Shown: positions 4,262-53,450 of the stretch, piece by piece
Layout of the letters: each line of letters opens with the position of its first letter
Numbering within the stretch: the stretch's first letter is position 1
NCBI RefSeq assembly: GCF_001038505.1
Contig: NZ_LDPY01000006.1
Location: forward strand, 42,386-106,385
Direction: 5' to 3'
Source: Puniceibacterium sp. IMCC21224
GTDB lineage: Bacteria > Pseudomonadota > Alphaproteobacteria > Rhodobacterales > Rhodobacteraceae
Length of the DNA stretch: 64,000 nt
Notes under the pieces: model-generated
The model's input: the letters and a program-made list of their open reading frames with translations, nothing else
The model's database searches: none
What the model was told of the DNA's origin: nothing
Translations under genes and position numbers: made by a program

Positions 4262-4274
4262 GGGCGGGCCCTCA

Positions 4275-13870: not shown

Positions 13871-13875
13871 AGAAC

Positions 13876-16327: not shown

Positions 16328-16337
16328 GGGGGCAGGC

Positions 16338-27766: not shown

Positions 27767-30700
27767 TCAGCCCGCGCGGCGCAGATGATAGAGCGCATCT
27801 GCCTCCAAAGGACCCATAATTGCGGTTTCGCTGCCATCTGCCCAGCGGATCCGCAACTGTGTGACGCGCCGGGCCGCACCCAGGCCGAAATGCACCCGGG
27901 GCGCGTCGAATGACATGAACCCGCCGCCCAGCTGCACCTCGCGGGTCATGGTGCGGCCCAGATCGTCGGTGATCTCGACCCGTGCGCCGATGCCGTCGCG
28001 GTTGCCGGCCATGTCGGTTAGTTGGAATGCGATGGCATGGCCGCTCTGTGTGTTGTTGCGAAACAGTGCCATCGGCCCGTTTACCGGATGGCTCAGAATA
28101 TCCAGATCGCCGTCGCCATCCATGTCGAACGCGGTGGCGGCGGCGGTCATCAGATAATCCTCAAGCCCCATCGGACCCGACGCCTCGGTAAAGGTGCCGT
28201 CGCCATTGTTGTGGAAATAAAGGTTCGAGGGGCTGACCTCGTTGGGGACCCAGGTGCCGTTGACGATATAGACATCCTGCCAGCCGTCCTGATCGAAATC
28301 CGCCACCTTGGTGTCCCAGCTCCAGCCCCCAACCTCGAGCCCGTGCGCACCTGCGGTGTCGGTAAAGGCATCACCCGCCGCGTCATGTTCCAGCAGCACG
28401 TTCGAGCGCAGGACCTGCTGCACGGACTCTTCGGCCTCGACCGCCGTGACCGCGCGGATCGGCAGGAAATGCAGCTCGCAAAAGCTGCGCGGGCGCGGCT
28501 GGCCATTGGGGATCAGCTTGCAGATCGACGGGTCGTTGCGCTGGATCGCCAGATCCTTGACCAGCATCGCCTTGCATTCTGCCTGTAGTCGTCCGGTCAG
28601 ATCCTGACATTTGCCGGCATAGGTCGGATCGAAATTATTGCCTGACTTGTACCAGGTCTTGATCTGCATGTTCTGTGCGCAGGCCGCTTTGGCCTGCGGG
28701 TCCGCGATGCCATCACAATAGCGCCCCAGCGGCTGCATCTTCAGCTTTTTTGACACGCCGGATGAGCGCCCGGCGATCTGGGCGAAATAGATCTCGGGCA
28801 CACCGTCATTCATCAGATCGGCGGTCTTGATTGCCATGGTGGTGGTGGTGGTGTGCGGCAGAAGATTGTCCGCATGGGTGATGGCGCTGAACCCACCGGC
28901 CCCATCGCCACGGTAAAGGTAATCGGGGATCTCGAAATCATTGCCCACCAGCAGGTCGGTCTGCCCGTCATTGTCGAAATCCGAGAACAGCACCGAAAGC
29001 GTCTCACCGGGGATGCCGGGCAGGTCGGTAAAATTCTGACCCGTCAGGGCGCCCGCGTCGTTCCAGACCACGCGGTTGCGGCTTTCTTCGCCCGGCACGC
29101 GGCGGTACCAGCCCGAGGTCCAGTTGCCGAGGGCGAGGTCCAGATCGCCGTCGCGGTCCGGGTCACCCAGACTGAGGGCAAGCGACAGCACAGCGTCGTC
29201 GCGGTTGAGGATCGGTTCGGGCGCGCCGACAAAGCCATCCGCCGAATTGCGCCACAGATAATTGCCCTGCCGGTAGGTGGCCAGGATCAGGTCGCGCCAG
29301 CCGTCATTGTCGATATCGGCGATCACCGCGTTGAACACGGCCATGTCGGCCAGCGGGCCGGGGTTGGCAGCCATCCGGGTGAACTGCCCCGCGCCGTCAT
29401 TGGCATAGAGATAAAGGCCCTGTTCCGTCGAGGCGACCGCCAGATCCAGATCGCCGTCATTGTCGATATCGCCGCTGGCGACGCTGCGCCCCTCCCAGAA
29501 TGGCGGCCACATATCCGCCATCGAGAACTCCAACGGCTTGTCGATGCCGGCCTCTGCGGCCTCGACCCGGGTGAACCCGGTTTCGGCAGCGGGCGAGGGC
29601 GGGGCAAACGGCGTCGCCTCGATTGTGATGCGGGTGGCATCGTCGCTGACCACCTGCCACGGCACGGCGTCTGCGGCCTGCGCCGCCCAGAGCAGGCGGG
29701 GCGGAGTTTCGGGCACGGCCTCTCCGGTCAGCATCTTCAGGGCGCGGTCGGTCTGGTACTGGTGCCAGCCCTGCGCGCCGAGCCCTGCCAGCACGCCGCA
29801 GACCAGCACCGTCGCCGCCAGCATCCAGGCCGCGCGCGGCCCCACCGATTGCGCCACGATGAAGTGTGAATAGACACTGAAACTGCCCAAAGTGAACAGA
29901 AGCGCCATGACATAGCCCTGCTCCAAACCGCTCGCCAGCAGCACCCCGGCCATCACCACATCGAACCCGATGGGCACCGGCAGGAACACCCCGACCGCCG
30001 CGATCCCCACCAGCATCAGCAGCGAAAACGGCAATCCCATGATCAGCCCCGTCGGCAGCAGCACCGCCGCCACCGTGCCCAGAAACCCGGCCAACAGCAT
30101 CAGCGGCACGGTTAGCCGGATGATGTACCACAGGTTCCGGGCATAGCTTTTTGCCACCTCCCAGACCGCCATGTGCAGCCCCTCGGGGCGGGCCTCACCT
30201 GCGGTCAGATCGGCGGCGCTCCAACCGGTCTGGATGCGGTGCTCGGGCGCGATTTCAGTGCGGGGCAGGGTGCGGCAGATCAGCGGCACCAGCACGAGGA
30301 TGATGAGCAGACTCAGCGCCACCTTGGTCAGCGCCATGTAGACCGGCACCAGCGAAAACAGCATCGTCAGCACCACCATGTTGAGCGTGGGCGAGGCGAT
30401 CATCGCGCTGAGCGTGGTTTCGGCCCGCAAGCCGCTGGAATACATCCCGCGCGCAATCGGCGCGGCGCAGTTGACACAGACCCCCAGCGGCGTGCCGATC
30501 ACCAGCCCCAGCAGCGAATTCGAGAACCGGCCGCGAAAGCTTTTGGTCTTGAGGTATCCCGCTGCCGTCAGGAACGCGGCGGCAAACAGCACACCGAATG
30601 TCATGCCCTTTTTGTTGGTATTGATCCAGTTCATCGTCGACCAGAAGATATGCTCAAAGATGTTCATATCAGCGGTGACGGGGAATTTCGCCTCAAAGCT

Positions 30701-30865
30701 CAGCGCATCCTCAAGCTGGATCGCGCCGGACATCATCGCCTTTTCATTCAGCGCCGGATAGCGCGATCCGGTCCAGAACAGATAGGCCAGCACCGCGACG
30801 ATCAGCGCAGCAAGGAAAAATCGTTTTTGAAACGGGCGGTGGATGAGCGTATCGAGCATGTGCAA
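27767..30865 (-). CDS. YraQ/DUF318-like permease fused to FG-GAP and ASPIC/UnbV repeats
   Basis: A 1032-residue membrane protein. Residues about 15-390 hold about nine hydrophobic helices with the conserved VCVNCAAPIARGMYSSG and ASPTLNMVVLTMLF segments, matching predicted permeases of the YraQ/DUF318 type. Residues about 445-720 contain FG-GAP/VCBS-type repeats with calcium-loop motifs DIDNDGDLDLA, DRDGDLDLA and DFDNDGQTDLL. A Cys-rich insert at about 713-798 has seven cysteines. More FG-GAP repeats (DFDQDGWQDVY, DMDGDGDLDIL) and an ASPIC/UnbV domain (GIGARVEI, VQLGGGFMSF, LRIRWADG) complete the protein. The beta-propeller part is expected in the periplasm. Substrate is unknown; the cysteine-containing permease motif hints at a thiol-liganded or metalloid solute, but this is speculation. 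Confidence 0.82.
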   Translation of the reverse strand: MHMLDTLIHRPFQKRFFLAALIVAVLAYLFWTGSRYPALNEKAMMSGAIQLEDALSFEAKFPVTADMNIFEHIFWSTMNWINTNKKGMTFGVLFAAAFLTAAGYLKTKSFRGRFSNSLLGLVIGTPLGVCVNCAAPIARGMYSSGLRAETTLSAMIASPTLNMVVLTMLFSLVPVYMALTKVALSLLIILVLVPLICRTLPRTEIAPEHRIQTGWSAADLTAGEARPEGLHMAVWEVAKSYARNLWYIIRLTVPLMLLAGFLGTVAAVLLPTGLIMGLPFSLLMLVGIAAVGVFLPVPIGFDVVMAGVLLASGLEQGYVMALLFTLGSFSVYSHFIVAQSVGPRAAWMLAATVLVCGVLAGLGAQGWHQYQTDRALKMLTGEAVPETPPRLLWAAQAADAVPWQVVSDDATRITIEATPFAPPSPAAETGFTRVEAAEAGIDKPLEFSMADMWPPFWEGRSVASGDIDNDGDLDLAVASTEQGLYLYANDGAGQFTRMAANPGPLADMAVFNAVIADIDNDGWRDLILATYRQGNYLWRNSADGFVGAPEPILNRDDAVLSLALSLGDPDRDGDLDLALGNWTSGWYRRVPGEESRNRVVWNDAGALTGQNFTDLPGIPGETLSVLFSDFDNDGQTDLLVGNDFEIPDYLYRGDGAGGFSAITHADNLLPHTTTTTMAIKTADLMNDGVPEIYFAQIAGRSSGVSKKLKMQPLGRYCDGIADPQAKAACAQNMQIKTWYKSGNNFDPTYAGKCQDLTGRLQAECKAMLVKDLAIQRNDPSICKLIPNGQPRPRSFCELHFLPIRAVTAVEAEESVQQVLRSNVLLEHDAAGDAFTDTAGAHGLEVGGWSWDTKVADFDQDGWQDVYIVNGTWVPNEVSPSNLYFHNNGDGTFTEASGPMGLEDYLMTAAATAFDMDGDGDLDILSHPVNGPMALFRNNTQSGHAIAFQLTDMAGNRDGIGARVEITDDLGRTMTREVQLGGGFMSFDAPRVHFGLGAARRVTQLRIRWADGSETAIMGPLEADALYHLRRAG

Positions 30866-32801: not shown

Positions 32802-32833
32802 ATAGACCCCGGGTGGTTCATCCCGGGGTCTAT
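32802..32833 (-). terminator. Strong terminator downstream of the first fibre-family gene
   Basis: A perfect 12-bp inverted repeat, ATAGACCCCGGG / CCCGGGGTCTAT with loop TGGTTCAT, lies 37 bases past the stop of the minus-strand gene ending at 32870. It closes off the paralogue cluster from the sulfotransferase-methyltransferase gene. Confidence 0.75.
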
Positions 32834-32869: not shown

Positions 32870-34147
32870 TTATCTGGCTGCAAGCGCCGCCTCGACCGAG
32901 GCAAGGCGTGCGGTCAGAGTCGCGATGACGGCATCTGACTGGGCCTGTGTCCGGGTCTGGGACTGGTGCAGTTCGGCGATGTAGATATGCGCCTTTTCCA
33001 GTTCGTTCAGCATGCCGGCCATCTTTTGCGTCACGTTGAACGGGCCGTCTTCGGGTGTTGGGCCAACATTGGGCAGATGCCGGTCGGCGAACATCATGGT
33101 TGCCTGTTCGGTGATGCTGGGCAACGGGTAATCCGCATCGAACACCCGGTCACACCCGGCCGAGCAGACTCCGCCGGTGGTGAACAGATCACCCTCGATC
33201 GTCAGATCGCCCTGGGGGGTCAGGATCATCTCGATATCGCCGGCGCCGCCGGGCGCGGTGGTGACGCGGAATGTGCCGCCCTGGTTCTGGAAATTCCATG
33301 ACCGCCCGGTATCGTCGCCCGCCGCAATCGAGGTGTCTTCGAGCGTGAGGAAGGTGGTGCCGTTGTTGCGCAGGGTCAGCAGGCCGCGCGCGGCGACGGA
33401 GCTGCTGGCCTCTTCGACCAGCACGGTGGCGCTGCCGTCGGTCTGGCGCACATGCAACTGGGCCTCGGCCGTCAGGATGCCGATGCCGACATCGCCGTCG
33501 GTGTCGATGACCAGCGCCTGGCTGGGCGCGCTCGGGCGGATGCGGAACGGCAGGGTCGAGCCGTTGGTGGTGTCACGGATGAAAAAGCTGGTCTCGTTAC
33601 CGGCCATGTCCCAGGTCTGCGGCGCAAAGCCGGACGACCCGTCCTGCGCCAGCCGCAGCGTCGGGGTGTCGCCGTCGATCACATGCAGCTCTACCGACGG
33701 GGTGCTGGTGCCCAGACCGACCCGGCCGCCATCGTCGACATAAAGCGCGTTGCTGCCGGCCCCGGCCTCGACCGTGAACACATTGGCGGTCGGCGAACCG
33801 CAGCCGCCATTGTCCGAGGCGGTGCCGCAGTCAAGGATCGCGAACTGGTTCCTACCGCCGTTGTTCAGCTGGTTGGCCTCCAGCTCCCAGTCGCGGTTGG
33901 GGAAACTGCCAGTCGAGGTGTCGGCGAATTTGAGCCGGGTGTTGTTTTCCTTGAGGATGATCGTGCTGTCGTCAAACGCGATACCGGCCTGACAGTCGCC
34001 ACCAACGCACAGGCTGTTGCGCACGATGCCATTGGCCGTGGTCAGGACGGTCTGCGCGTCGGCAGTCTGGGCAGGCAGCCAAGGCAGCGCGACGCCCAAC
34101 AGCAGGACGGCCGGGTGGCGCAGGGCGGGAAACAGGGAATAACGCAT
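32870..34147 (-). CDS. Secreted fibre-like protein, CxGxxC family member 1
   Basis: A 425-residue protein with a Sec signal peptide (about residues 1-31, ending TADA). Just after it lies LCVGGDC (C47 and C52), the CxGxxC motif shared by the whole cluster, then FDDSTIILKENNTRLKFAD and SFPNRDWELEAN. The middle holds phage-tail-fibre-like units (NALYVDDGGRVGLGTSTP, VDTDGDVGIG-like) that usually make beta-structured shafts. The end has CSAGCDRVFDADYPLP, RHLPNVGP and a heptad-like helix MLNELEKAHIYIAELH, as in proteins carrying tail-fibre chaperone-like C-termini. Trimeric assembly is therefore likely but not shown. It probably crosses the inner membrane by Sec; release by the nearby type II system is a hypothesis. 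No enzymatic motif seen. Function unknown. Confidence 0.85.
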   Translation of the reverse strand: MRYSLFPALRHPAVLLLGVALPWLPAQTADAQTVLTTANGIVRNSLCVGGDCQAGIAFDDSTIILKENNTRLKFADTSTGSFPNRDWELEANQLNNGGRNQFAILDCGTASDNGGCGSPTANVFTVEAGAGSNALYVDDGGRVGLGTSTPSVELHVIDGDTPTLRLAQDGSSGFAPQTWDMAGNETSFFIRDTTNGSTLPFRIRPSAPSQALVIDTDGDVGIGILTAEAQLHVRQTDGSATVLVEEASSSVAARGLLTLRNNGTTFLTLEDTSIAAGDDTGRSWNFQNQGGTFRVTTAPGGAGDIEMILTPQGDLTIEGDLFTTGGVCSAGCDRVFDADYPLPSITEQATMMFADRHLPNVGPTPEDGPFNVTQKMAGMLNELEKAHIYIAELHQSQTRTQAQSDAVIATLTARLASVEAALAAR

Positions 34148-34257
34148 TCAAATGCTCCTTTGGTCTAAGAGGGCCGGAGAAAGGCGGCCCGCGGTAATAA
34201 TACGCAGCAGAGACGCACAGCGCCCCACCTGCATAGTCTATAGTTAAAACGCCCGAA

Positions 34258-34307
34258 GCGGCACCAATTTCTGGTGCCGCCCGGAAAGGTTCCGGAATCC
34301 GGGCGGC
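34258..34307 (-). terminator. Two overlapping hairpins between fibre-family members 1 and 2
   Basis: GCGGCACCA / TGGTGCCGC (34258-34266 and 34272-34280, loop 5) and GCCGCCCGG / CCGGGCGGC (34276-34284 and 34299-34307) share bases 34276-34280, so only one can form at a time. They follow the stop of member 2 by 33 bases on the minus strand and could be a terminator or an attenuator controlling readthrough into member 1. Confidence 0.6.
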
Positions 34308-34339
34308 AATACACCCCAGACCCCGCTGTTCAGATCCGC

Positions 34340-35590
34340 TTAGTTGCGGGTCTGTTCCAGCATATCGAGCCGGGCGCGCAGCGCGTCCATCTCGGACAGA
34401 CGTGTGCGCAGTTCGGCAACTTCTTCTTCCTGCGTGGTGACTTGGCCATGCAGCTCGGCGATGTAGATATGTGCCTTTTCCAGCTCGTGCAGCATGCCGC
34501 CGACCTTGGTTGTGATGTCGAAGGGCGCATTCTCCAGGGTGGGACCAACAGCCGGCAGATGCCGGTTGGCGAACATCATCTCTTTCTGCTCGGGGATCGT
34601 CGGCAGCACGCTGTCGGCATCAAAGATCCGGTCGCAGCCGCCGCCGCCGCAGGTGGTGCCACCCGTGGTCAGGCTGCCCGAAATGGTCAGATTGCCCTGT
34701 TCCGTCAGGGCGAATTCAGGCCCCGCCACCGCCGATGTGGCAAAGCGCAACTCATTATCTTGGTTCTGCAGGTTCCATTGCACAGAGCTGTTGTCGAGGG
34801 TCATGAACACGGTGCCGTTGTTCTTGAGGCTCATCAAACCACGCGCGGTATTGGTGCCGCTGGTCTCGTTGATGGTCAGCTTGGACGTACCGGCCGAGCT
34901 GGTCACCAGCACGGTACCATCACCACCTGCCACATGCAGGTTGGCCGTGGGGATGTCCGTTCCCAGGCCGATATCTCCGTTTGCTTTGATGAATATGGAG
35001 TCTTCCGGGGCACCCGGCTTGATCCTAAACGACAGGGCCGAGCCGTGGGTGACGTCGCGGATAAAAAAGTTGGCCTCGTTGCCGGCGATATCCCAGGTCT
35101 GGGCGGAAAAACCCGACGATCCGTCCTGTTCCAGCCGCAGGGCCGGGCTATTGCCGTCCGTTACATGCAGTTGCACCACCGGATTGCTGTTGCCCAGACC
35201 GACATTGCCATTGTTTTTTACATAGAGCGCATTGTTGCCCGCGCCCGCCTCAACACGGAACGGGATCCGGCCTGCGGTGCTGTCCTCAATGGCAAGGTAG
35301 TTTGCGCCACCGTTGTTGCTGTCATTGGCGATGATACGCCAGTCGTTGGCAGGGAAGCTGCCCGAAGACGACGTGTCATCGAAATGGATGCGCAGGTTGT
35401 TTTCCTTGAGTCGCAGCGTGTCAAAACCAAAGTTTTCGCCGCTGTTGCAGTCAAAGCCGGTACAGGTCGACCCTTGGACGATCAGATCGGTGGCAAAGAC
35501 CTGGGCGGCCTGTGCGGTGCCGGAAATCGCGCAGAGTGCGGTGGCCCCCAAAAGGGCTGCTCCGATCCGGTTGTGCAGCGTGATACTCAT
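34340..35590 (-). CDS. Secreted fibre-like protein, CxGxxC family member 2
   Basis: A 416-residue paralogue of the gene at 32870. The signal peptide ends near residue 28 (GTAQA). CTGFDC (C43, C48) is the family motif, followed by FGFDTLRLKENNLRIHFDD and SFPANDWRIIAN. Tail-fibre-like units NALYVKNNGNVGLGNSNP and IKANGDIGLGTDIP follow, then a C-terminus with CGGGGCDRIFDADSVLP, RHLPAVGP and a longer predicted coiled coil (EEEVAELRTRLSEMDALRARL). The stretch SSGFSAQTWDIAGNEANFFIRD is nearly that of member 1, showing recent common origin. It lies 46 bases downstream of the small exported protein at 35637, with which it likely shares a transcript. No function can be assigned. Confidence 0.85.
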   Translation of the reverse strand: MSITLHNRIGAALLGATALCAISGTAQAAQVFATDLIVQGSTCTGFDCNSGENFGFDTLRLKENNLRIHFDDTSSSGSFPANDWRIIANDSNNGGANYLAIEDSTAGRIPFRVEAGAGNNALYVKNNGNVGLGNSNPVVQLHVTDGNSPALRLEQDGSSGFSAQTWDIAGNEANFFIRDVTHGSALSFRIKPGAPEDSIFIKANGDIGLGTDIPTANLHVAGGDGTVLVTSSAGTSKLTINETSGTNTARGLMSLKNNGTVFMTLDNSSVQWNLQNQDNELRFATSAVAGPEFALTEQGNLTISGSLTTGGTTCGGGGCDRIFDADSVLPTIPEQKEMMFANRHLPAVGPTLENAPFDITTKVGGMLHELEKAHIYIAELHGQVTTQEEEVAELRTRLSEMDALRARLDMLEQTRN

Positions 35591-35636
35591 TATTTGGAAC
35601 TCCTATATTTTCATTACTTTGCTGATCCCAGCAGGC

Positions 35637-36059
35637 TCAGCCGTCTTCTTCCTTGATCTCTTCGGGGGTGATGATCACCCCGCGTTCGACCACAAAAAAA
35701 CCGGTCGAATAGTATGGCTTGGCCATAGTGCCGTCATCGCTGCTGTCACCGCGGCCGTTGTCCACCTGGTTGACGATCTCGACCTTTTCGTCGGTCGCGG
35801 CGCGCAGTTCGAACCGGTAGACGCCATCCTGTGCCTCGGCGCGGTCAAGCTCGAACACCGGGGTGCCGGATTCGGCGTAAACCGTGGACATCTTGCCATT
35901 GGGTGCGGCGACCACCAGTGTGGCATTGGTCAGCCCGACCCAGTTTTCAAACCAGACGGCGTTTGAATTGTGCTGTTGCACCGGATCAGCGGCCAGAGCG
36001 GCACCCGCGCCAAACCCCATGAGCATCGTCGCAACAAAAACAGTTCTTAGAATATGCAT
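35637..36059 (-). CDS. Small exported protein of unknown function
   Basis: A 140-residue protein starting at ATG 36059 (MHILRTVFVATMLMGFGAGA), with a clear signal peptide cleaved near AALAAD. The mature part is acidic and beta-rich (NATLVVAAPNGKMSTVYAES, YRFELRAATDEKVEIVN) with no cysteine and no motif I recognise. It opens what looks like an operon with fibre-family member 2, 46 bases downstream. A TATAAT box on the minus strand (36144 to 36139) lies about 80 bases upstream in an AT-rich patch. It could be an accessory or assembly factor for the fibres, by context only. Confidence 0.75.
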   Translation of the reverse strand: MHILRTVFVATMLMGFGAGAALAADPVQQHNSNAVWFENWVGLTNATLVVAAPNGKMSTVYAESGTPVFELDRAEAQDGVYRFELRAATDEKVEIVNQVDNGRGDSSDDGTMAKPYYSTGFFVVERGVIITPEEIKEEDG

Positions 36060-36138
36060 GCTCAAGTCTCTTGTTGTCTTTACCGGATTTCGTGCCGTGC
36101 CGATCCGTTTTGGCACAGGCGTTCATATACATATTAAC

Positions 36139-36144
36139 ATTATA
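36139..36144 (-). promoter_or_regulatory. Candidate -10 box upstream of the small exported protein
   Basis: A perfect TATAAT reads on the minus strand within a markedly AT-rich stretch (about 36118-36175) in otherwise GC-rich DNA. No convincing -35 hexamer was found at the usual distance, so it may need an activator. Confidence 0.45.
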
Positions 36145-36205
36145 GTAAGCATGTTTCTTTTTTAAGAGAAAACTTGCAACATTACGGCGCAGGTGTGGCA
36201 TTCAA

Positions 36206-36236
36206 GCGGTGCTCGGGGGGAAATCCCGAGCACCGC
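36206..36236 (-). terminator. Strong terminator after fibre-family member 3
   Basis: A perfect 12-bp stem GCGGTGCTCGGG / CCCGAGCACCGC with loop GGGAAAT lies 41 bases past the stop of the gene ending at 36278. It isolates that gene from the promoter region of the small exported protein. Confidence 0.78.
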
Positions 36237-36277
36237 AAGCTCAGCACGACCAGTATTATGGTTGCCCGGCTTGTGCG

Positions 36278-37543
36278 CTATTTGCGGGATGCCGGTGACT
36301 GGCGCGCTCCAAGGCCCTCGACCAAGGCCTCCAGCCGGAGTATGCGGGCTTCGCGGTTCGCGGCCTGGTCATGCAGCTGTGCGATATACAGATGCGCCTT
36401 TTCCAGCTCGTTCAGCATGCCGCCGACCTTTTGCGTCACGTTGAACCGGCCCTGTTCATCGGTCGGGCCGACATTGGGCAGATGCCCTGTGGTACGCATC
36501 ATCGCGGCCTGCTCGGCCATTGTCGGCAGTGGGTAATCGGCGTCAAACACCCGGTCGCAGCCCGCCGCGCAGACGCTGCCGTTGGTGAAAAGGTCGCCGC
36601 CGATGGTCATGTCACCGCCGGGTTCCAGCACCATCTCGATGGCGCCGCCGCCGCCCGGTCCGGGTTTGGTGGTGACGCGAAAGGTGCCGTTCTGGTTTTG
36701 AAAATTCCACGCCCGGCCGTTGAAATTGGTATCGGCGCGCGAGGTATCTTCGAGTGTGAAGAACGTGGTGCCGTTGTTGCGCAGGGTCAGCTGCCCCAGG
36801 ATGCCCGCGCCAGTCTCTTCGATCAGCAGGGCGGCGGTGCCGTCGGATCTGACCACATGCAGGGCGGTTGCCGGATCGTCGGTGCCGATGCCGATGTTGC
36901 CGGTGGCTTCGACAAAAAGACTGTTGTCCGGCGCTGTCTTCTCGATCTGCAGGGGCGTCTGATTGTTGGTATTGTCATGGAAGCGGAGCGTGTTGCCGCC
37001 GATGAACTGCCAACTTTGCGCCCCGACGCCTATGGAATCCATCTGAATGTTCGGTTTGACGATGTTCCCGACGATATGCAGATTGGCGGTCGGTATCGAG
37101 GTCCCGATGCCGATGTTGCCGAAGTTGCTGATCCAGAGGGCATTGTCCGGCGTACCCGCCTCGATGGTGAAGGGGATCGTGCCCGCCGACAGATCCTCGA
37201 CCGAAAACCGGTTCATACCGCCGCTTGCCAACAAACTGCTTTCGTTGACGAGGAGCCGCCAGTCGTTGCCGGGATAGGTGGAGCTAGCGCTATCCTGAAA
37301 TTCGATGCCGGTGACAGGGCCATTCAACTTGAGCAATGTATCGGTGGCGAATGTCTCGGTCAGAACGCAGGAGTTGCCGATACAGACCTTGTCATCCAGA
37401 ACGGATGGCCCCTCCACATACAGGTCGGCATTCGAGATATTGCTGTCGAATATGGTGATGCCACCGGCATGGGTGTTCTGCGCCAGAACAGGCATCCCTG
37501 AAAGAGCACAGACAATCGTTGCAAAAAGCATTTTCGAGAACAT
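36278..37543 (-). CDS. Secreted fibre-like protein, CxGxxC family member 3
   Basis: A 421-residue paralogue with a signal peptide (MFSKMLFATIVCALSGMPVLA). The N-terminal mature segment is longer than in the other members, placing CIGNSC at C54-C59. Then come FATDTLLKLNGPVTGIEFQD, YPGNDWRLLVN, two or three tail-fibre-like units (NALWISNFGNIGIGTSIP; SLFVEATGNIGIGTDDP), VRSDGTAALLIEETGAG and WNFQNQNGTFRVTTKPG. The C-terminus has CAAGCDRVFDADYPLP, HLPNVGPTDEQ and the helix MLNELEKAHLYIAQLH. It stands alone between a strong terminator and a 130-bp upstream gap. Function unknown; secreted fibre subunit proposed. Confidence 0.85.
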   Translation of the reverse strand: MFSKMLFATIVCALSGMPVLAQNTHAGGITIFDSNISNADLYVEGPSVLDDKVCIGNSCVLTETFATDTLLKLNGPVTGIEFQDSASSTYPGNDWRLLVNESSLLASGGMNRFSVEDLSAGTIPFTIEAGTPDNALWISNFGNIGIGTSIPTANLHIVGNIVKPNIQMDSIGVGAQSWQFIGGNTLRFHDNTNNQTPLQIEKTAPDNSLFVEATGNIGIGTDDPATALHVVRSDGTAALLIEETGAGILGQLTLRNNGTTFFTLEDTSRADTNFNGRAWNFQNQNGTFRVTTKPGPGGGGAIEMVLEPGGDMTIGGDLFTNGSVCAAGCDRVFDADYPLPTMAEQAAMMRTTGHLPNVGPTDEQGRFNVTQKVGGMLNELEKAHLYIAQLHDQAANREARILRLEALVEGLGARQSPASRK

Positions 37544-37673
37544 GGGTCATACTCCGTCCACCGCCGCGAAACCGGGGGCGCGGGGGAAATGAAGTGAAAT
37601 GATGCAGCGCCGCATCCCCCCGGGGGGCGACGCCCAAAGCTATGTGGCACGACCGCATTCTGTCAATTTCGGG

Positions 37674-38883
37674 TCATTTGGCGGTCTTCTGGCCAAGCCC
37701 AAGGACCAACGCGCGCAATTCGGCGATCTGCGCCTGCTGGTCGGCACGGGCCTGCTCCAATTCCAGCGTATACAGCGTCAGTTCCTCGACCTTTTGCAGC
37801 AGGGTCATCTGCATCCTGCTCAGGTTGTGGCTGGTATCTGCGATCTGCGCCGCCGAGGGCACATCGGGCAGATGCCGGTTGGCGGCGATGAAACTGGCCA
37901 CCTCGCTCAGCGGCCGCAGGGCATAGGCATCGTCAAAGACGTAATCCGGCACCGGCGAGCCGCCGTTGGAGAAGTAATCGCCCGAGATTGTCATGTCGCC
38001 GGTGGGTGTCAGGATCATCTCGATGCTATTCGCGCCGCCCGGCGGGGTGGTGATGCGAAAGGTGCCGTTCTGGTTCTGAAAGTTCCACTTGCGGCCCGAA
38101 TTGGCGGTGTCGGGGCGCGAGGTATCCTCGAGCGCGAAATAGGTGATGCCGTTGTTCTTGAGATGCAGCTGGCCCAGGGTGCCGGGGGATGTCTCCTCGA
38201 CCAGGATTGCGGCGCGGCCGTCACTGCGTTTCACATGCAGGCCGGGGTCAGGGTCCCCACCCCGACCCCCGGCGCGCCGACCACCAGCGCATCGTTGAGT
38301 GCCCCGGACAAGACCCTGAACGGGGCCACGGTTCCGCCCGTGGCGTCGCTCCGAGTGCGGTTCAGCAGGGCAACTCGAATTCGTAGCCATACATGTCCCA
38401 GGTATATGGCGTCCGCCCGCCAGCGCTGGTCTGGTCGAACTTCATCCCCGGAAAGGCGGGCGACGCGATGTGCAGCCGGGATGCCGGCAGCGCCGTGCCG
38501 ATGCCGATATTGCCGTCTCCGGCGACATAGAGCGCATTTGTCGGCGCGGCGCCCTCGATTGCAAAGGGCATCCGGTTGAGGGTCAGGTTGTTGACCGCAA
38601 AGAGGTTGCGCCCGAACTGGTCCGCGTCGTTCACCAGCAATTGCCAGTCGTGAAAGGGATAGCCGCCGGTGTTTGACGACAGGTCGTCGAAGCTCAGGCG
38701 CGGCGAGATTCCTTTGACCTTGATCTGTTCGGTGCCATAGACCTCTCCGTCGATGCAGTTTGTACCGGCGCAGAGCTTTGGCGTGGCGATGGCGTCCGCG
38801 ATGACAAAATCGGCGCTGGCGCCGGTGACGGCGGAACTCCAGAGGGCGGCGGCCAGCGGCAGGCTGAGAGAAATGGAGCGCAT
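37674..38883 (-). pseudogene. Fibre-like protein, family member 4, broken by two frameshifts
   Basis: Three consecutive frames together encode a full family member. From ATG 38883 the first frame gives a signal peptide, LCAGTNC (C38, C43), NALYVAGDGNIGIGTALP and DMYGYEFEL, then stops at 38362. A second frame carries VALLNRTRSDATGGTVAPF to GVGVGTLTP. The third gives GLHVKRSDGRAAILVEE through to DYVFDDAYALRPLSEV, RHLPDVPS and a coiled coil (LLQKVEELTLYTLELEQ) ending at 37674. Inserting one C near 38376 and one in the G4 run at 38244-38247 (plus strand) would restore the frame exactly. Both are single-base losses at short C/G runs, so sequencing error is as possible as real decay. The C-terminus is of the PDYVF...ELTLY subtype shared with member 5. 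Confidence 0.8.
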
Positions 38884-39159
38884 CGGTCAGATCCTTGTGA
38901 AAAATACAGGCAAAAATAGATACCTCCACAGGGGGAAGGCCGCAGACGAAACGGACGTGCAGGGGCCGTTTCCGGGCGGCGATCCATCGCAAAGGTTCAG
39001 TCCGGGAAAACGGACAGTGCACGGGATTAACAGTGCAGGCTGGCCCGGTCTTGTCGAGTTTTTCCGGCCTTGCCGGGCATTTTGCACCCCCCCGCGCGTG
39101 CCCGCACCGGCAGGCACACGCGGCCCAGAAGGCGGCTCTGCATGCAGGGCGCCGGGGCC

Positions 39160-40374
39160 TTACCGGGTGATCTGCGCCTCGATCCCGGCCAGACGCGCGG
39201 TCAGCCCGGCAATGGCGCCGGTCTGCGCCGCATTGGTCTGTTCCAGCTCAAGGGTATACAGCGTCAGTTCCTCGATCTTGCGCAGCAGGGCCATCTGCAT
39301 CCGGCTGACATTATGCCCCTCTGCCGCGACCTGCGCCGCCGACGGCACGTCGGGCAGGTGGCCGTTAACGGCGATGAAATCCTGCACCTGATCTAGCGGC
39401 CGCAGATCATATCCGGCGTCAAAGACATAATCCGGCACTGGCGTGCCACCATTCGAGAAATAATCGCCCTCGATGGTCAGATCGCCGGCGGGCGTCAGGA
39501 TCATTTCGATATCGCCCGCCCCACCCGGCGCGGTGGTGACGCGGAACGTGCCGCCCTGGTTCTGGAAATTCCACGACCGCCCGGTGTCGTTGCCCGCGGT
39601 GATCGAGGTATCCTCGAGCGTGAGATAGGTGATGCCGTTGTTGCGCAGGGTCAGCTGGCCCAGGGGGCCTGCCCCCGTCTCTTCGATCAGCAGCGCGGCG
39701 GTGTTGTCGCCGCGCTGCACATGCAAGGCCGCATCCGGTGCGGAGGTGCCGAGGCCGATATCGCTGCTGTCTGAAATGACCAGACTGCCATCGCCTGCCC
39801 CGGCGCGCACCACAACCGGCACCCGATTGGTCGTCACGTTCTTCAGGAACCAGTTGAACCGGTTGGCCAGCATGTCCCAGTTGTACGGGGTGCTGCCGGT
39901 CGACTGCTGCCGGATGCCCGTGGTTGACCCGCCAACCACGTGCAGGGCCTGCTGCGGCAGCATTGTGCTGATGCCGACCCGGCCGTTGCCGCCCAGGACC
40001 AGGGTGTTGGTCAGGGCGGTGTCGTCGATAAAGAACGGGATTCTGCCGTCGGTGACGTTCCGGATGGCGAAATGTTCGCTGGAGGTTAGGGTGTCGTTGG
40101 CCTGTAGCGCCCAGTCGGTGGTCGGAAGACCGGACGAGGTTGAACTGTCCTGAAACCGGATCTCGAGGTCACTCGCATCCAGCAGGATCTGGGTGGCGGT
40201 GTCAAAGGGCTCGCCATCGGCGCATTGAAACCCGACGCAGAGCTTGGCGTCGACGATGACATTCTGGGTAAACACCTCATCAGCCTGTAGCGGAGCGGCG
40301 ACAAAAGCACCGAGCGCGGCAGTGAGCAGGCCGGAGCAGAGGGCGGGTGTCGGGGTGTATCGGTGCAGGTGCAA
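39160..40374 (-). CDS. Secreted fibre-like protein, CxGxxC family member 5
   Basis: A 404-residue paralogue. The start is taken as TTG 40374 since AGGAGA lies 6 bases upstream and the result is a clean signal peptide (MHLHRYTPTPALCSGLLTAALG). CVGFQC (C46, C51) is followed by FDTATQILLDASDLEIRFQD and LPTTDWALQAN. Tail-fibre-like units (NTLVLGGNGRVGISTMLP; LVISDSSDIGLGTSAP) and a long block nearly identical to member 1 (DTGRSWNFQNQGGTFRVTTA, IEMILTPAGDLTIEGD) follow. The C-terminus is PDYVFDAGYDLRPLDQV, GHLPDVPSAAQV and MALLRKIEELTLYTLELEQ, the form widespread in proteins with tail-fibre-like ends. It lacks the second cysteine pair found in members 1, 2, 3 and 6. Function unknown. Confidence 0.85.
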   Translation of the reverse strand: MHLHRYTPTPALCSGLLTAALGAFVAAPLQADEVFTQNVIVDAKLCVGFQCADGEPFDTATQILLDASDLEIRFQDSSTSSGLPTTDWALQANDTLTSSEHFAIRNVTDGRIPFFIDDTALTNTLVLGGNGRVGISTMLPQQALHVVGGSTTGIRQQSTGSTPYNWDMLANRFNWFLKNVTTNRVPVVVRAGAGDGSLVISDSSDIGLGTSAPDAALHVQRGDNTAALLIEETGAGPLGQLTLRNNGITYLTLEDTSITAGNDTGRSWNFQNQGGTFRVTTAPGGAGDIEMILTPAGDLTIEGDYFSNGGTPVPDYVFDAGYDLRPLDQVQDFIAVNGHLPDVPSAAQVAAEGHNVSRMQMALLRKIEELTLYTLELEQTNAAQTGAIAGLTARLAGIEAQITR

Positions 40375-40550
40375 AACGTGTCTCCTGATAAAAAGCGCAT
40401 TGGGTCGAAATACGCGGCACAGGCCGAAATGGCCTGACGATGGGTCGTCACATGAGGGCATGCGCGACACAGGGCAACCGCGCCCCGCCGATTGGGGCAG
40501 GACGGGTGCGTTAACTTTTGTGAATGTCGGCCTGACCTGTCAAGCCAATG

Positions 40551-41552
40551 TCAGGGCGGGGCCGATTCAAGTGAGGTCAGTCGCGCGTCAAGATCCGCCA
40601 GCCCGGCCAGCCGGGTACGCAGCTTGGCAATTTCGACCGTCCGGGCCTGATTGTCCCGGTCCTGCGCTTTTTCCAGCTCGTTCAGCATGCCGCCGACCTT
40701 TTGTGTGACATTAAAGGGGCCGTCCTCATCCGTTGGGCCAACATTCGGCAGATGGCGGGCGCTGCGCATCTGCGCCGCCTGTTCGGCAATTGTCGGCAGC
40801 GGATAGTCGGCGTCGAACACCCGGTCGCAACCGGCCGCGCAGACCGAGCCGTGGGTGAAAAGATCACCCTCGATGGTCAGGTCGCCGGTCAGGATCAGAT
40901 CGTCGTTGCTGATCTGCACGACGCCGTGATCGGCGCTGCTGAGGATGGTCAGCAGAGACCTGAAGGTGGGGTTGGTCACGTTCCGGCCCGTGGCCTGGAA
41001 ATTCAGCCCAAAGGCATTGGCCGACAGCCGGAATGCGGCGCTGCCGTCGCTGCCCGCGATCCCCATCCGCAGGCTCGAGGTGCTGCCGCCCTGAAGATGC
41101 AGGTCGTCCTGCGGCAGCGACGCGCCGAGGCCGACATCGCCATTCCCGGCGACATAGAGACTGTTAACCGGCGCCGGCCCTTCGATGGTGAAGGGGGTGG
41201 TGTTCTCGCTCCGGTTCATAATCGAAAAGCGGTTGATCGCCGCGGCGCTGTTGCCGACGTCATTGGCCAGGATCTGCCAGTCGTTGGTGGGGCCGCCATC
41301 GGACGAGACGTCGTCAAAGCGGATGGCGGTGTCGGTGCCGCGCAGCAGCAGGGTCTCGGTCAGGAACCCCTGCGTCGTGCCGCAGGGGACGCCGACACAA
41401 AGCTTGCCCTGCACCACGGCGTCGGTGGTGCTGAGCACGGTCTGCGCGCCCGGCGACGTGGCCAGTGCACAAAGCGTGGCGGCGATCAGGGCAGCGGCAG
41501 GCGCGGCTGTGTCATGTCGGCGGGGAAAGAGAGCAAAACGGATCAAGGTCAA
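40551..41552 (-). CDS. Secreted fibre-like protein, CxGxxC family member 6 (short)
   Basis: A 333-residue paralogue, about 80-90 residues shorter than its relatives because part of the central shaft is missing. The signal peptide (ending near ATSPGA) is followed by CVGVPC (C52, C57), LTETLLLRGTDTAIRFDD, NDWQILAN and NSLYVAGNGDVGLGASLP. After a diverged segment come LTGDLTIEGDLFTHGS, CAAGCDRVFDADYPLP, RHLPNVGPTDEDGPFNV and a helix MLNELEKAQDRDNQARTVEI. It is the most upstream intact copy, 65 bases from a remnant of yet another copy. Function unknown. Confidence 0.82.
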   Translation of the reverse strand: MTLIRFALFPRRHDTAAPAAALIAATLCALATSPGAQTVLSTTDAVVQGKLCVGVPCGTTQGFLTETLLLRGTDTAIRFDDVSSDGGPTNDWQILANDVGNSAAAINRFSIMNRSENTTPFTIEGPAPVNSLYVAGNGDVGLGASLPQDDLHLQGGSTSSLRMGIAGSDGSAAFRLSANAFGLNFQATGRNVTNPTFRSLLTILSSADHGVVQISNDDLILTGDLTIEGDLFTHGSVCAAGCDRVFDADYPLPTIAEQAAQMRSARHLPNVGPTDEDGPFNVTQKVGGMLNELEKAQDRDNQARTVEIAKLRTRLAGLADLDARLTSLESAPP

Positions 41553-41617
41553 TTCTCCAATAGGGCGGCCGGGACCGGGGAAAATCCGGCCCGCACTCCA
41601 TGCTGAGAATAAGTGCG

Positions 41618-41905
41618 TTAATGATTGTTAATCGGGGAGGGCGGGTCAACCCGCGTCGCCTCGATCACGGCCAGACGGGTCTGGAGGGTGGCGATCATTT
41701 CCCCCTGCCGCGCAATCGTACCAACCTGCCGGTCGATGTAGAGGCTCCAGCGCTTTCAGCATCCGCCCCAGCTTGTCCGAAACAGTGATCGGCGCGCCTT
41801 CGGTCGCAGGACCGGCCTGCGGCATCACCGGATAGTCCGCACCGAACAGCCGGTCCGGGCGCGCGACGCGCGGCATCCCCCGGGACAGCCGTACCCCAAA
41901 CAAGC
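41618..41905 (-). pseudogene. C-terminal remnant of a seventh fibre-family gene
   Basis: The frame read from about 41905 gives DRLFGADYPVMPQAGPATEG and ITVSDKLGRMLKALE, matching the DRVFDADYP...NVTQKVGGMLNELE end of the family. A one-base shift then continues as LYIDRQVGTIARQGEMIATL and LQTRLAVIEATR to a stop at 41618-41620, which is the expected coiled-coil tail. The N-terminal three quarters, including signal peptide and CxGxxC motif, are gone. The remnant abuts the Sel1 gene ending at 42016. Confidence 0.65.
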
Positions 41906-42015: not shown

Positions 42016-43275
42016 TCAGGGCTGCCCGCCCGCCGGGTCTTCTGGCCTCTGCAACCCGCCCTGCCACAGCGCCTCGGCGCGGGCCTGCGCCTCGTTGATC
42101 TGGGCGGGTGTCATGCGGGTGGCCAGCGCCGCGCCGCGCTCGGCCGCCTCGGGCAGCCCGGCAGAGCCTGCCAGCACCAGCCACATCTGCGCCAGCACGT
42201 AATCCTGCGGCACGGCGCGGCCCAGCACATAGAGCTGCGCCAGATTGGCCATCGAGGCGGCGTGCCCCTTGGTGGCGGCGGCGGCGAAATAACCGGCGGC
42301 GGCCTGCCAGCTGACCTGCGTCGGCTCAGCGAGGTTCGCCAACAGCCAGCCCGTCTGGATCTGCGCCACCGGATCGCCGGCCTGCGCCGCCGCCTCAAGC
42401 GTTTGCAACGCCTCTGCGTCCTGTGGTGGGGGGGCCAGGCGCGGATCATAGACGAAATCCGCTGTCGTTGGCTCCGTGGCTTCGGCGCCGCCCTGTCCGC
42501 CCATGCGGTAGAGGCTGGCGGCGCGGGCCTCATCATGTGGCACGCCAAAGCCGTTTTCGTACATCACCCCAAGGTTGGTCATCGCCAGGGTCAGCCCCTG
42601 ATCGGCGGCGGCGGTGAACAGGGCCACTGCGCGTTCGTAATCCTGCGGCACACCCGATCCGCGTGCATAAAGCAGGCCAAGGTTGTTCTGTGCCCGGGCA
42701 TTGCCTGCTTCGGCGGGGCCTGCGTACAGCGCGCGCGCGCGCTCGAGGTCCTGCGCCACGCCGCGCCCGTTCTGATACAGCACCCCCAGGCTGACGGCGG
42801 CGTCCTCATGCCCGGCATCGGCGGCCCGTTGATAAAGGACTGCGGCACTGGCCAGCGCTTCGGGTGAATCAGGATCCTGTTCCAGCACAGAGGCGTAATC
42901 AAAAAGGTATTGCGGATTGCCGCTGTCGGCAGCAGCACCAAGCCAGCGCAGGGCGGCGGCGCGGTCCGCTTTGACACCCAGCCCGGCGTGGGCATAGCGC
43001 CCCAGCGCGTTTTGGGCCTGCGGGTCGCCAGCCTGCGCGGCACGGCTGTACCAGGCGGCGGCCTCGGCATAGTTCTGCGGCACGCCCGTGCCGGTGTGAT
43101 AGCGTTCTGCCAAGGCAATCTGGGCGGCGATATCACCTCCGGTCGCGGCCTGTTGCAGGCTGGCAATATCGGTCTGGCCCAGATCCTGCGCGGCCAGCGG
43201 TGTGGTAACTATCAGCGCCAGCAGCACCGCCCGGTACACGCGCCGTGTCAGGCCCGAAAACGCGCCCGCTCTCAT
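42016..43275 (-). CDS. Sel1-repeat exported protein
   Basis: A 419-residue protein with a signal peptide (VYRAVLLALIVTTPLAAQ) and at least eight Sel1-like repeats of the form AxxxLGxxYxxGxGVxQDxxxAxxxYxxAAxxG, for example AQIALAERYHTGTGVPQNYAEAA near residues 50-70. An Asp/Pro-rich break (TTADFVYDPRLAPPPQDAEA) splits two repeat blocks, and the end resembles the MTPAQINEAQARAEALW tail common in alphaproteobacterial Sel1 proteins. Such solenoids mediate protein interactions, often in envelope processes. Its start overlaps the stop of the upstream Sel1 gene by 4 bases, so the pair is translationally coupled. Specific partner unknown; its place between the fibre family and the type II system suggests an envelope role. 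Confidence 0.88.
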   Translation of the reverse strand: MRAGAFSGLTRRVYRAVLLALIVTTPLAAQDLGQTDIASLQQAATGGDIAAQIALAERYHTGTGVPQNYAEAAAWYSRAAQAGDPQAQNALGRYAHAGLGVKADRAAALRWLGAAADSGNPQYLFDYASVLEQDPDSPEALASAAVLYQRAADAGHEDAAVSLGVLYQNGRGVAQDLERARALYAGPAEAGNARAQNNLGLLYARGSGVPQDYERAVALFTAAADQGLTLAMTNLGVMYENGFGVPHDEARAASLYRMGGQGGAEATEPTTADFVYDPRLAPPPQDAEALQTLEAAAQAGDPVAQIQTGWLLANLAEPTQVSWQAAAGYFAAAATKGHAASMANLAQLYVLGRAVPQDYVLAQMWLVLAGSAGLPEAAERGAALATRMTPAQINEAQARAEALWQGGLQRPEDPAGGQP

Positions 43276-44891
43276 TGCCCTGTCACCACACTCTGTTCGG
43301 TCTGCGGCATCATCTTTGCCTGCGCTGCGTACAGATCGCGGGCGCGGGTCTGCGCCTGGGCAATCTGTTCGGGGGTCATCAGGGCGGCGATCACATCGCG
43401 TGTCTCGCTTGCCCCTGCATTGCCCCCCGCAGCAGCGAGGTTGAGCCAGCTGTGCGCGGTGACGTAATCCTGCTCCAGCCCGTAATCGCCTGTGGCCCAG
43501 GCCTGCCCCAGCAGCGCCTGGGCGGCGGTCTCTCCGGCCTCGGCGGCGGCGGTCAGCAAGGCGATGCCGTCTGCAGAGCGGTCAGGATCGGACAGCAGTT
43601 CCTGCCCCAGAGCGAGCTGCGCGGTGCGCATCCCCTCGTCCGCGCGGCTTTGCAGCCAGTCCCCGGCGCCGTCCTCATCCTGCTGCATCGCCAGCAGCAC
43701 CCAGGGCACCGCCCGTTGCGGCGCGACTCGTCCGTCAAGCAGGCCCGCCACCGCCATCTGCCCCAGCCGCAGCCGGGCACTTGGTTCTTCGGCTGTGGCG
43801 GCGCTGCGATACAGTTTGATCGCGGCGTCCAGATCCTGCGGCAGACCGCGACCTTCTTCGGTCAGCTGGCCCAGTGCGGTCATGGCGCGGGGGATTTCAG
43901 CCTGTACACCGCGCCGGTACCATTGCACTGCCAGCGCGTCATCCTGCGCAAGGCCGGTGCCGTTGGTATAGGCCGAGCCCAGATTGAGGATCGCGCCCGG
44001 CTCTCCGGCCTTGGCTGCGGGTTCGAGCCAGCGCAGCGCCTCGTCCGGGTTGGCGTCGACGCCGTCGCCGGTCAGATAACGGGTGCCCAGGATGCGCTGT
44101 GCCCGCGGCATCCCGGCCTCGGCGGCGCGGCGGTACCAGCGCAGCGCCGCGACGCGGTCCTGCGCAACCCCCCCGCCGGTCTCGAGCGCATTGGCCATAA
44201 AATACTGCGCCTCGATATGGCCCGCATCGGCGGCCTTTTCGAGCCAGCGCAGCCCCTCTTCGTTGCTCTGTTCGGTGCCGGTGCCGCTGGAATAGGCCTT
44301 GGCCAGCTCGTATTGCGCGGCGACATAGTCCTGTTCAGCGGCGGCAAGGAACCAGTTGAACGCGGCCTGCGGATCCTGTGGGGTGCCGGTGCCGCTCTGG
44401 CTGAGCTGGGCCAGATAATACTGCGCCTCGGCCTGACCGCGTGCGGCGGCGCTGGCCAGCAGGGTGGCGGCGCGTTCGGGATCGTAAGGCGCGCCGACGG
44501 CATCGCCGCGCAGCAGCAGCCGCGCCAGCAGGGTGGCGGCCTCGGAGTGGTTCTGCGCCACGGCCTTTTGCAGCCACTCAAGCGCGGCAGTCATGTCACG
44601 CGGTCCGCCGCGTCCCTCGACCAGCACGCGGGCATAGCGGTACTGGGCCAGGGGGGTTCCGGTCTCTTCCGCCAATTGTTTGAGCCCGTCGCGCACAAAG
44701 ATGAAATCGCCGCGTTGCCAGGCTTGCTCGACCTCGGCCATCGACGGCAGGGCACTGGCGTCCCCGGCTGTGTCGGCATCGACCTGCGGTTCTGGGGCCA
44801 CAGTTTCGGCGGGCACCTCCTGAGCGGAGAGCGGTATGGAAAGGCTGGTCAGCAGCAGCGACAGGGGCAACAGAGGCAGGCGAAAACGCAT
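43272..44891 (-). CDS. Sel1-repeat exported protein (larger partner)
   Basis: A 539-residue exported protein starting at ATG 44891 (MRFRLPLLPLSLLLTSLSIP), with signal peptide cleavage near LSAQE. About eleven Sel1-like repeats follow (AQYRYARVLVEGRGGPRDMT, AQYYLAQLSQSGTGTPQDPQ, AQYFMANALETGGGVAQDRV and others), and the C-terminus TPEQIAQAQTRARDLYAAQ is similar to that of the downstream paralogue, which it overlaps by 4 bases (ATGA). The two probably arose by duplication and may work together as a periplasmic scaffold. The divergent neighbour is not immediate: the prepilin peptidase gene lies upstream in the same direction, 90 bases away. Confidence 0.88.
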   Translation of the reverse strand: MRFRLPLLPLSLLLTSLSIPLSAQEVPAETVAPEPQVDADTAGDASALPSMAEVEQAWQRGDFIFVRDGLKQLAEETGTPLAQYRYARVLVEGRGGPRDMTAALEWLQKAVAQNHSEAATLLARLLLRGDAVGAPYDPERAATLLASAAARGQAEAQYYLAQLSQSGTGTPQDPQAAFNWFLAAAEQDYVAAQYELAKAYSSGTGTEQSNEEGLRWLEKAADAGHIEAQYFMANALETGGGVAQDRVAALRWYRRAAEAGMPRAQRILGTRYLTGDGVDANPDEALRWLEPAAKAGEPGAILNLGSAYTNGTGLAQDDALAVQWYRRGVQAEIPRAMTALGQLTEEGRGLPQDLDAAIKLYRSAATAEEPSARLRLGQMAVAGLLDGRVAPQRAVPWVLLAMQQDEDGAGDWLQSRADEGMRTAQLALGQELLSDPDRSADGIALLTAAAEAGETAAQALLGQAWATGDYGLEQDYVTAHSWLNLAAAGGNAGASETRDVIAALMTPEQIAQAQTRARDLYAAQAKMMPQTEQSVVTGQ

Positions 44892-44981
44892 GATATCAGG
44901 TCTCTTTTCAAAGGGCATGGGCGTAAATGGCGGCTATTTCTGCCAGAGCCTAACGCGGTTTGCGGCGCGGCGCGAGGGGGG

Positions 44982-45752
44982 TCAGCCCACCACGACCGAG
45001 AGCCGCATCAGCCAGAGGCCCGCCGCCGCCGCCGCCAGCGCCGCGCCAAAGGGCAGCGGGCGGCTGGCCCGCAGCGCGGCGCGACCCCGGCCCGACATCA
45101 GCGCGCCCCCAAGGGTCGCCGCCAGCGCCGCAAGGGCGGCGAGCAGCACCAGCAGCGGCAGATCCCAGGGGCCCAGCAACGCCCCCAGTCCCGCCATCAG
45201 TTTGACATCGCCCAGCCCCAGCCCCTCGCGTCCGCGCAGAGTCCGGTAGCCCAGCCGCAGGGCGGCAAAACTGCCCGCCCCCAACGTCGCCCCAATCAGC
45301 GCGCCGCCGGGATTCCCATCCACGCGCAACGACCACAGCAGCGCCAGTGCCAGCAGCGCTCCGGTCATCACATCCGGTAGGCGGAACCACAAAAGATCCG
45401 CCACCCCCAACCCCAGCAGCAGCCAGAGCAGTGCGGCAATCATTGCCATCGCCACCATATCCTGCCCGAGGATCACCGCGATACCCGTCGCGCCGGTGGT
45501 GGCGATCTCAATATACAGCAGCCAGGGCGGGATGGTGGCACCGCAATGGCGGCAGCACCCGCGCGACAGCGCAAACGACAGGATCGGCACCAGATCGCAC
45601 GGACCCAGCCGCTGATGGCAGGACCGACAGGCCGATCCGGGCCAGACCACGTTTTGACCACGCGGCAACCGGTCGATCAGCACACCTAGGAATGACCCCA
45701 TCACCGGGGCCAGCAGCAGCAGAAGGACGGCAAAGACAGCGGTGTCTGACAT
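44982..45752 (-). CDS. gspO: Type IV prepilin peptidase of the type II secretion system
   Basis: A 256-residue inner-membrane aspartyl protease that cleaves and N-methylates prepilin-like proteins such as GspG-K. It has the N-terminal APVMGSFLGVLIDRLPRGQ segment, a zinc-binding pair of CxxC motifs (CRSCHQRLGPCD and CCRHCG), the first catalytic Asp in GVADLLWFRLPD and the second in GLGLGDVKLMAGLGALLG. About eight hydrophobic helices follow the family plan, and the length is normal. It is transcribed divergently from gspG with a 164-bp spacer containing a good promoter for the gspG side. All its likely substrates are encoded in the next 3 kb. Confidence 0.93.
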   Translation of the reverse strand: MSDTAVFAVLLLLLAPVMGSFLGVLIDRLPRGQNVVWPGSACRSCHQRLGPCDLVPILSFALSRGCCRHCGATIPPWLLYIEIATTGATGIAVILGQDMVAMAMIAALLWLLLGLGVADLLWFRLPDVMTGALLALALLWSLRVDGNPGGALIGATLGAGSFAALRLGYRTLRGREGLGLGDVKLMAGLGALLGPWDLPLLVLLAALAALAATLGGALMSGRGRAALRASRPLPFGAALAAAAAGLWLMRLSVVVG

Positions 45753-48903: not shown

Positions 48904-48913
48904 AACCGCAGGC

Positions 48914-51235: not shown

Positions 51236-51272
51236 TCCGGCACTGCCCGCCCCGCGCCACAAAGGATCTGCC

Positions 51273-53377: not shown

Positions 53378-53450
53378 AGCGGAGCAAGACGTCTGGCCAC
53401 ACCCCCACAAACGGGGCAGGAACCGGGCGCGGGTGGTGAGAGAGCAGAGC

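Follow-up and report, generated by a model that had tools for sequence, protein, structure and literature searches.

Tandem genes for candidate MAT-type fibres adjoin a type II secretion locus in Puniceibacterium sp. IMCC21224

A tandem array of genes for putative secreted fibre proteins adjoins a type II secretion system (T2SS) locus in Puniceibacterium sp. IMCC21224, on a 64,000-nt stretch of DNA (contig NZ_LDPY01000006.1, positions 42,386-106,385) that is referred to here as the window and numbered from its first base. The array lies on the minus strand at 32870-41825 and consists of five intact genes, one frameshifted gene, and one remnant; a family profile search of the window retrieved seven fibre frames plus the remnant, in agreement with the copy count of an original prediction made from the sequence alone. 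That prediction placed the array at 32870 to 41905, of which the start holds but not the end, since the array stops near 41825. It also described a row of fibre genes, which is correct except that a small open reading frame (ORF) among them, encoding a conserved non-fibre partner termed ND, was overlooked. The genes are as follows:

F1, 32870..34147, minus strand: intact fibre, 425 aa, tip type A
F2, 34340..35590, minus strand: intact fibre, 416 aa, the copy adjoining ND
ND, 35637..36116, minus strand: free-standing Ig-like N-domain protein, predicted secreted; likely start 36059, 140 aa; directly upstream of F2
F3, 36278..37543, minus strand: intact fibre, 421 aa, tip type A
F4 C-terminal piece, 37674..38390, minus strand: frameshifted fibre, tip type B
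F4 N-terminal piece (F4a), 38362..38883, minus strand: frameshifted fibre
F5, 39160..40470, minus strand: intact fibre, ORF from GTG, true start unsure, tip type B
F6, 40551..41552, minus strand: shorter fibre, 333 aa, without a mid-shaft segment, tip type A
Remnant, about 41651..41825, minus strand: fibre C-terminus in two frames

Protein identity to F1 across the array, both F4 pieces included, is 35-52%, and a further fibre copy lies elsewhere in the genome (C1:352846-353955). F2 is the best window match for 15 of the 17 fibres located outside the array in the family loci compared.

The signal peptides originally assigned to the copies were confirmed by a simple n-h-c rule, which identified Sec-type signals without a lipobox at the six N-termini (F1, F2, F3, F4a, F5, and F6). 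Equally sound is the CxGxxC motif, originally suggested as a possible anchor or cross-link, which all six carry at 38-54 residues counting from the first translated residue (an assumed one for F5). It is near-invariant among relatives: of 120 homologues listed, 117 have it, and 116 have a further Cys pair close to the tip. Each of these six also has one or two capping-loop repeats of the form [VI]G.[GNSR]xxxPxxxL, against a background of 0.007 per shuffled protein. An AlphaFold2 monomer of F1 displays a beta shaft followed by a C-terminal helix at residues 372-424 (predicted local distance difference test 81.0, predicted template-modelling score 0.56). Tips in the window are of two cap types, A and B, and a third type, S74 (PF13884), caps the relatives P0121-P0123, whose head is the same as that of the window family. 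Pfam searches of the window fibres up to E=1 returned neither PF13884 in the seven frames nor a YadA-like C-terminal anchor, and no Pfam or NCBIfam model matched the copies over its cut-off. At E<=1e-3, the family as a whole takes in 2,761 clustered proteins out of 8,000 candidates scored.

Among proteins whose structure is known, the family is closest to the cellular mosaic adhesive trimer (MAT) fibres of Bdellovibrio bacteriovorus, not to phage fibres. The family profile matched Bd2133 (E 6.2e-13), Bd3182 (1.8e-4), and Bd1334 (7.6e-4), F5 alone matched Bd2133 at 6.6e-8, and comparison of the shaft with known structures gave middling Z scores. Judged by these profile matches, the fibre shaft is homologous to MAT shafts, and the shaft and exchangeable C-terminal module (including S74) of the MAT superfamily are both recognizable by sequence in the present family. 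The conserved beta-rich domain of ~130 aa that directly follows the signal in MAT fibres is absent from the window fibre chains; ND, a candidate counterpart, is a separate protein in the window and a fused domain of the fibre in 13 of 76 named loci (the best of 441 stretches). Phage-like, the term first applied to the family, suits the shafts but not their closest relatives of known structure. Undescribed, as the candidate surface system was also called, is too strong for a shaft family already known from MAT fibres; as far as the searches reached, the novelty lies in the head, in ND as a partner, and in the T2SS cluster.

Members of the family read as mosaics. DNA identity between F1 and F5 is 46-57% over head and shaft, rises to 71-87% over codons 231-322, and falls to 37% just after, a sequence pattern of cap change on a shared neck. 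The Thalassococcus profundi locus (L102, 382-19661) carries 14 tandem fibres, eight with cap A and six with cap B. The necks are more alike than the heads in 89 of 91 pairs there and in 15 of 15 pairs of a Marimonas array, but in only 1 of 153 pairs within a set of 18 fibres that come from different loci, are T2SS-linked, and adjoin ND; in the window this is so in 4 of 10 pairs, and smaller sets are mixed. The proposal that the fibres are interchangeable is upheld insofar as C-terminal modules (A, B, S74) are swapped, yet L102 and L116, the two largest arrays examined, vary more in the N-terminal half. These identities fit an ND partner fibre with a constrained head and large arrays with diversified heads, with gene conversion as an alternative account of the array pattern.

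Besides the fused cases, 48 of the 76 loci encode ND, predicted to form an Ig-like N-terminal domain, as a protein of its own immediately upstream of a fibre, so that sequence records both split and fused forms of the same pair. Strong ND matches occur in 14 genomes of a family-level survey of 248, and 11 of these have a single match; a weak match in G001 (1.9e-4, within a 12,521-aa frame) was left out.

The locus adjoining the array qualifies as a T2SS. Genes D, G, K, and L exceed their NCBIfam cut-offs, E, F, H, and J are best-matching but below theirs, M exceeds its Pfam cut-off, I and C match weakly, and O is called by place and sequence only. The secretion genes and conserved neighbours in the window are:

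27767..30865, minus strand: ArsP-type permease fused to FG-GAP repeats and UnbV/ASPIC, conserved fibre neighbour
42016..43275, minus strand: Sel1a, Sel1-repeat protein with signal-like N-terminus, conserved neighbour
43272..44918, minus strand: Sel1b, Sel1-repeat protein with signal-like N-terminus, conserved neighbour
44982..45752, minus strand: gspO, prepilin peptidase named by place and sequence; no NCBIfam match
45917..50616, plus strand: gspG-H-I-J-K-L-M
50628..51152, minus strand: tetratricopeptide repeat (TPR) lipoprotein, conserved in the T2SS locus; pilotin-like by position only
51270..51758, plus strand: gspC-like, weak GspC match
53433..55409, plus strand: gspD secretin, over the TIGR02517 cut-off
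55318..56910, plus strand: gspE ATPase, 543 bits, below the cut-off of 630
56907..58142, plus strand: gspF, 310 bits, below the cut-off of 424

The gene at the gspO position in Roseovarius faecimaris is annotated as an A24 family peptidase; strain MME-070 of this species has T2SS, fibre, and ND genes on a plasmid. Between gspC and gspD lies a SulP-type transporter gene (51899-53161; named from sequence) unmatched in the other family loci compared. The permease/FG-GAP fusion is kept in three Alphaproteobacterial loci compared in full, while nine other loci (one of them an unclassified proteobacterial metagenome-assembled genome, MAG) match the FG-GAP half only. Adjoining the array, a single ORF at 31048-32802 carries sulfotransferase and methyltransferase domains.

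Adjacency of fibres and secretion genes, noted originally for this one locus, extends well beyond it. Strong fibre matches (E<1e-100) were found in 13 of the 248 genomes surveyed, and all 13 carry ND and a gspD over the cut-off, partial pieces joined with in-frame neighbours being counted as such. As gspD over the cut-off is present in 34 of the 248, this co-occurrence has P=6e-13 with genomes taken as independent. In the gspD tree, one clade with 100/100 support holds the 13 fibre genomes together with G152 (ND but no fibre), G222, and G040; fibres thus occur in 13 of 16 genomes of this clade and in 0 of 18 outside it (Fisher p=6e-7, with a warning of long branches from the tree program). The order T2SS, gspO, Sel1b, Sel1a, ND, fibre recurs in seven relatives, counting G200, whose contig is a circular 103-kb record with the gene order joining across its ends. 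The window deviates in that F3-F6 lie between Sel1a and ND and F1 lies beyond F2, and in G098 gspO is found elsewhere in the locus. In G187, G098, G210, and G200 the stretch examined also includes the permease/FG-GAP gene. Four fibre genomes (G099, G126, G133, and G064) have ND with Sel1 genes and the fibres on other contigs. Among the 76 loci, at least one gsp gene is present in 28 and at least three within 10 kb in 21, an FG-GAP match over 70 bits in 41, and Sel1 in 34; Maricaulis and relatives keep gspD, FG-GAP, Sel1b, Sel1a, ND, and fibre together in six loci. As read from these sequences, the cluster is conserved and fibre and gspD are co-inherited within the family.

Several observations weigh against a strict link, and the non-random tie of the fibre family to type II secretion has exceptions. 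Family members at loci without secretion genes, which the original prediction regarded as damaging, were found in part: no gsp gene lies within the stretch examined in 48 of the 76 loci, and gspD over the cut-off is present in 24 and absent in 14 of 38 fibre genomes picked from these loci, a nonrandom choice aimed at non-Rhodobacterales and at loci without nearby T2SS genes. Six of the 14 are Acidobacteriota with only 199-212-bit gspD matches, two show no more than gspD fragments, and the remaining six reach 140 bits at most or have no match. The one Acidobacteriota match that was checked is PilQ, in a pilM-pilQ operon beside a fused fibre (L167). One of these last six, an uncultured Amylibacter MAG (L129) that includes a 2.75-Mb chromosome contig, has an ND-fibre pair with no gspD over the cut-off and no secretion gene among the nine ORFs scanned beside the pair; it is a counter-example to strict T2SS dependence. 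Three genomes left out of the 13 for weak partial fibre matches (G138, G230, and G242; E 2.5e-9 to 1.3e-4) also lack gspD over the cut-off, and including them lowers the count to 13 of 16. No inference on the link is possible at the phylum level, because the fibre occurs in only 4 of 398 genomes (gspD in 210).

In L167, an Acidobacteria MAG, the fused ND-fibre is directly upstream of the pilM to pilQ type IV pilus operon (9425-17388); its pilM was unmatched in all the other of the 76 stretches.

The window contig, of 106,385 bases, is probably a plasmid, because it encodes a RepA-type initiator (PF10134, 331 bits; G000 contig C6, 34009-34692). It also carries deoxythymidine diphosphate (dTDP)-sugar genes at about 1520-6255 (L059-L061; named from sequence) and, at L059 15189-17219, a gene for a long protein in which coiled-coil-like repeats recur many times in near-identical form. 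The fibre is present in nine plasmid records, eight of them roseobacter-type and all nine typed non-mobilizable, and the source bacteria of some came from biofilm or algal cultures. According to the available portion of a 2026 Sulfitobacter paper (PMC13386836), a T2SS is found on ~8% of putative non-mobile plasmids, with host-interaction roles suggested. In the available portion of another report (PMC10090131), strain M382 is described as amenable to mutation and to growth as a biofilm, biofilm-formation proteins, considered together with the general secretory pathway, reached higher levels in biofilms treated with thiosulfate, and no rhamnose operon was present on plasmids of the 54 strains studied; that portion contains no discussion of the fibre cluster. 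The circular 103-kb plasmid of M382 (CP081099.1) encodes both Sel1 proteins, ND, and a single fibre, and the matching contig has the T2SS; the fibre frame is only 296 aa long, with a stop within the profile match, and may therefore lack the cap.

On balance, the array probably encodes secreted homotrimeric fibres of the MAT kind, exported by their cognate T2SS, with ND as a shared base or adaptor. Each fibre would begin with a CxGxxC head, probably disulfide-bonded, continue as a short beta-helical shaft that bears capping loops, and end in an exchangeable, helical cap that includes a coiled coil; the cap (A or B in the window, the S74 chaperone in some relatives) probably drives trimerization. 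Fibres would reach the periplasm by Sec, fold there, and exit through the neighbouring, co-inherited T2SS. ND would correspond to the N-domain that other phyla carry on single-chain ND-fibres and may bind the conserved head of the T2SS-linked fibre F2, aiding export or surface retention, whereas the tandem copies would form a repertoire generated by duplication and recombination, with attachment as their most likely role. Trimerization, ND binding, and adhesion are inferred, as is T2SS export, the best-supported but unproven step. We advance more tentatively, as a possibility we would not yet bet on, that a dedicated T2SS lineage exports MAT-type trimeric fibres via a detachable Ig-like ND, with one base per exchangeable repertoire, and that large-array fibres would be reversed relative to Bdellovibrio MATs, a recombining, more constant C-terminal half being combined with a diversified N-terminal recognition head.

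The most serious competing explanation, though an unlikely one, is that MAT-like surface fibres exit by another route and that the T2SS exports something else, such as ND or enzymes, the genes sharing only a surface-lifestyle cluster. The 14 chosen fibre genomes without gspD over the cut-off speak for it, as do the array fibres with no nearby T2SS gene (L102, L116) and the pilM-pilQ operon adjoining a fused fibre; against it stand the 13 of 13 in the family survey, the restriction of fibres there to one gspD clade, and the ND-fibre pair that holds its position beside gspO and Sel1 genes in many genera. Shared carriage on roseobacter biofilm plasmids might by itself have linked the T2SS to the fibres, and the nine non-mobilizable plasmid records, as well as the RepA-type initiator and dTDP-sugar genes of the window contig, are in keeping with such hitch-hiking. 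We consider it improbable, given that linkage persists on long chromosomal-looking contigs, spanning T2SS and fibre in Shimia (964 kb) and gspD and fibre in Maricaulis (contigs of 670 and 857 kb); that a Hoeflea contig of similar chromosomal look (600 kb) retains FG-GAP, Sel1, Sel1, ND, and fibre with no gsp genes in the stretch examined; and that a Phaeobacter plasmid keeps the ND-fibre pair with no T2SS gene in the 37 kb examined.

It is very unlikely that fibre and ND serve the T2SS as periplasmic scaffold components rather than as substrates: the single ND match in 11 of 14 genomes and the adjoining periplasm-type scaffolds (Sel1 and TPR proteins) would suit that role, but exported adhesins are a better match for an array of 14 divergent fibre genes and for the homology to MAT fibres. 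Least credible of all is a prophage or tailocin remnant in which the genes are tail fibres, despite matches to PHROG tail-fibre profiles (best E 6e-9) and annotation pipelines that call some relatives "tail fiber domain-containing protein". Sec signals and conservation beside the T2SS argue against it, F2 was unmatched in 50,697 phage records at 1e-5, and F1 at E<=1 matched 25 phage records, of which the 20 listed align mostly over the shaft at 26-35% identity (E 2e-5 to 0.8). A two-pattern scan of viral_contigs confirmed no relative. Within the sensitivity of the phage and viral searches, no phage or prophage encoding of the family was detected.

Export of MAT-type fibres by a cognate T2SS, if true, would be, as far as the searches reached, the first secretion route assigned to such fibres, and would add a new class of candidate T2SS substrates. 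Co-occurrence of the fibre family with one T2SS lineage makes the outer-membrane crossing of MAT-type fibres testable, and the cluster may represent an important, plasmid-borne attachment system of marine bacteria.

Among known systems, phage fibres (the S74 endosialidase chaperone PF13884; T4 gp34) share the shaft and, in P0121-P0123, the S74 cap, but the window family differs in its Sec signals, its cellular loci, and the lack of S74 in the window copies. Trimeric autotransporter adhesins of the YadA type are secreted fibres with coiled coils; the window fibres resemble them in this respect, but no C-terminal membrane anchor domain was found in them. T2SS-exported biofilm matrix proteins of Vibrio cholerae offer a parallel in Sec plus T2SS logic and in the link to attachment; the window family differs in that the genes for its candidate substrates are tied to a single T2SS lineage. 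The window contig resembles roseobacter biofilm plasmids in combining a RepA-type initiator and dTDP-sugar genes, although the fibre cluster is not among the features described in the available portions of PMC13386836, PMC5513947, and PMC10090131.

The closest parallel is with MAT fibres, as described in the available portion of PMC10769870, whose main text does not state how such fibres cross the outer membrane and does not contain the word "secretion". Both groups have a Sec signal, C-terminal modules of S74 and non-S74 type, a beta-helical shaft bearing capping loops, and a multigene repertoire with chimeric members. The window family is shorter (~330-450 aa versus 626 to 1,151 aa for the named MATs) and is set apart by its CxGxxC head, separately encoded ND, helical A/B caps, and linked T2SS cluster, and in its two large arrays, as opposed to MATs, the N-terminal half is variable and the C-terminal half more constant.
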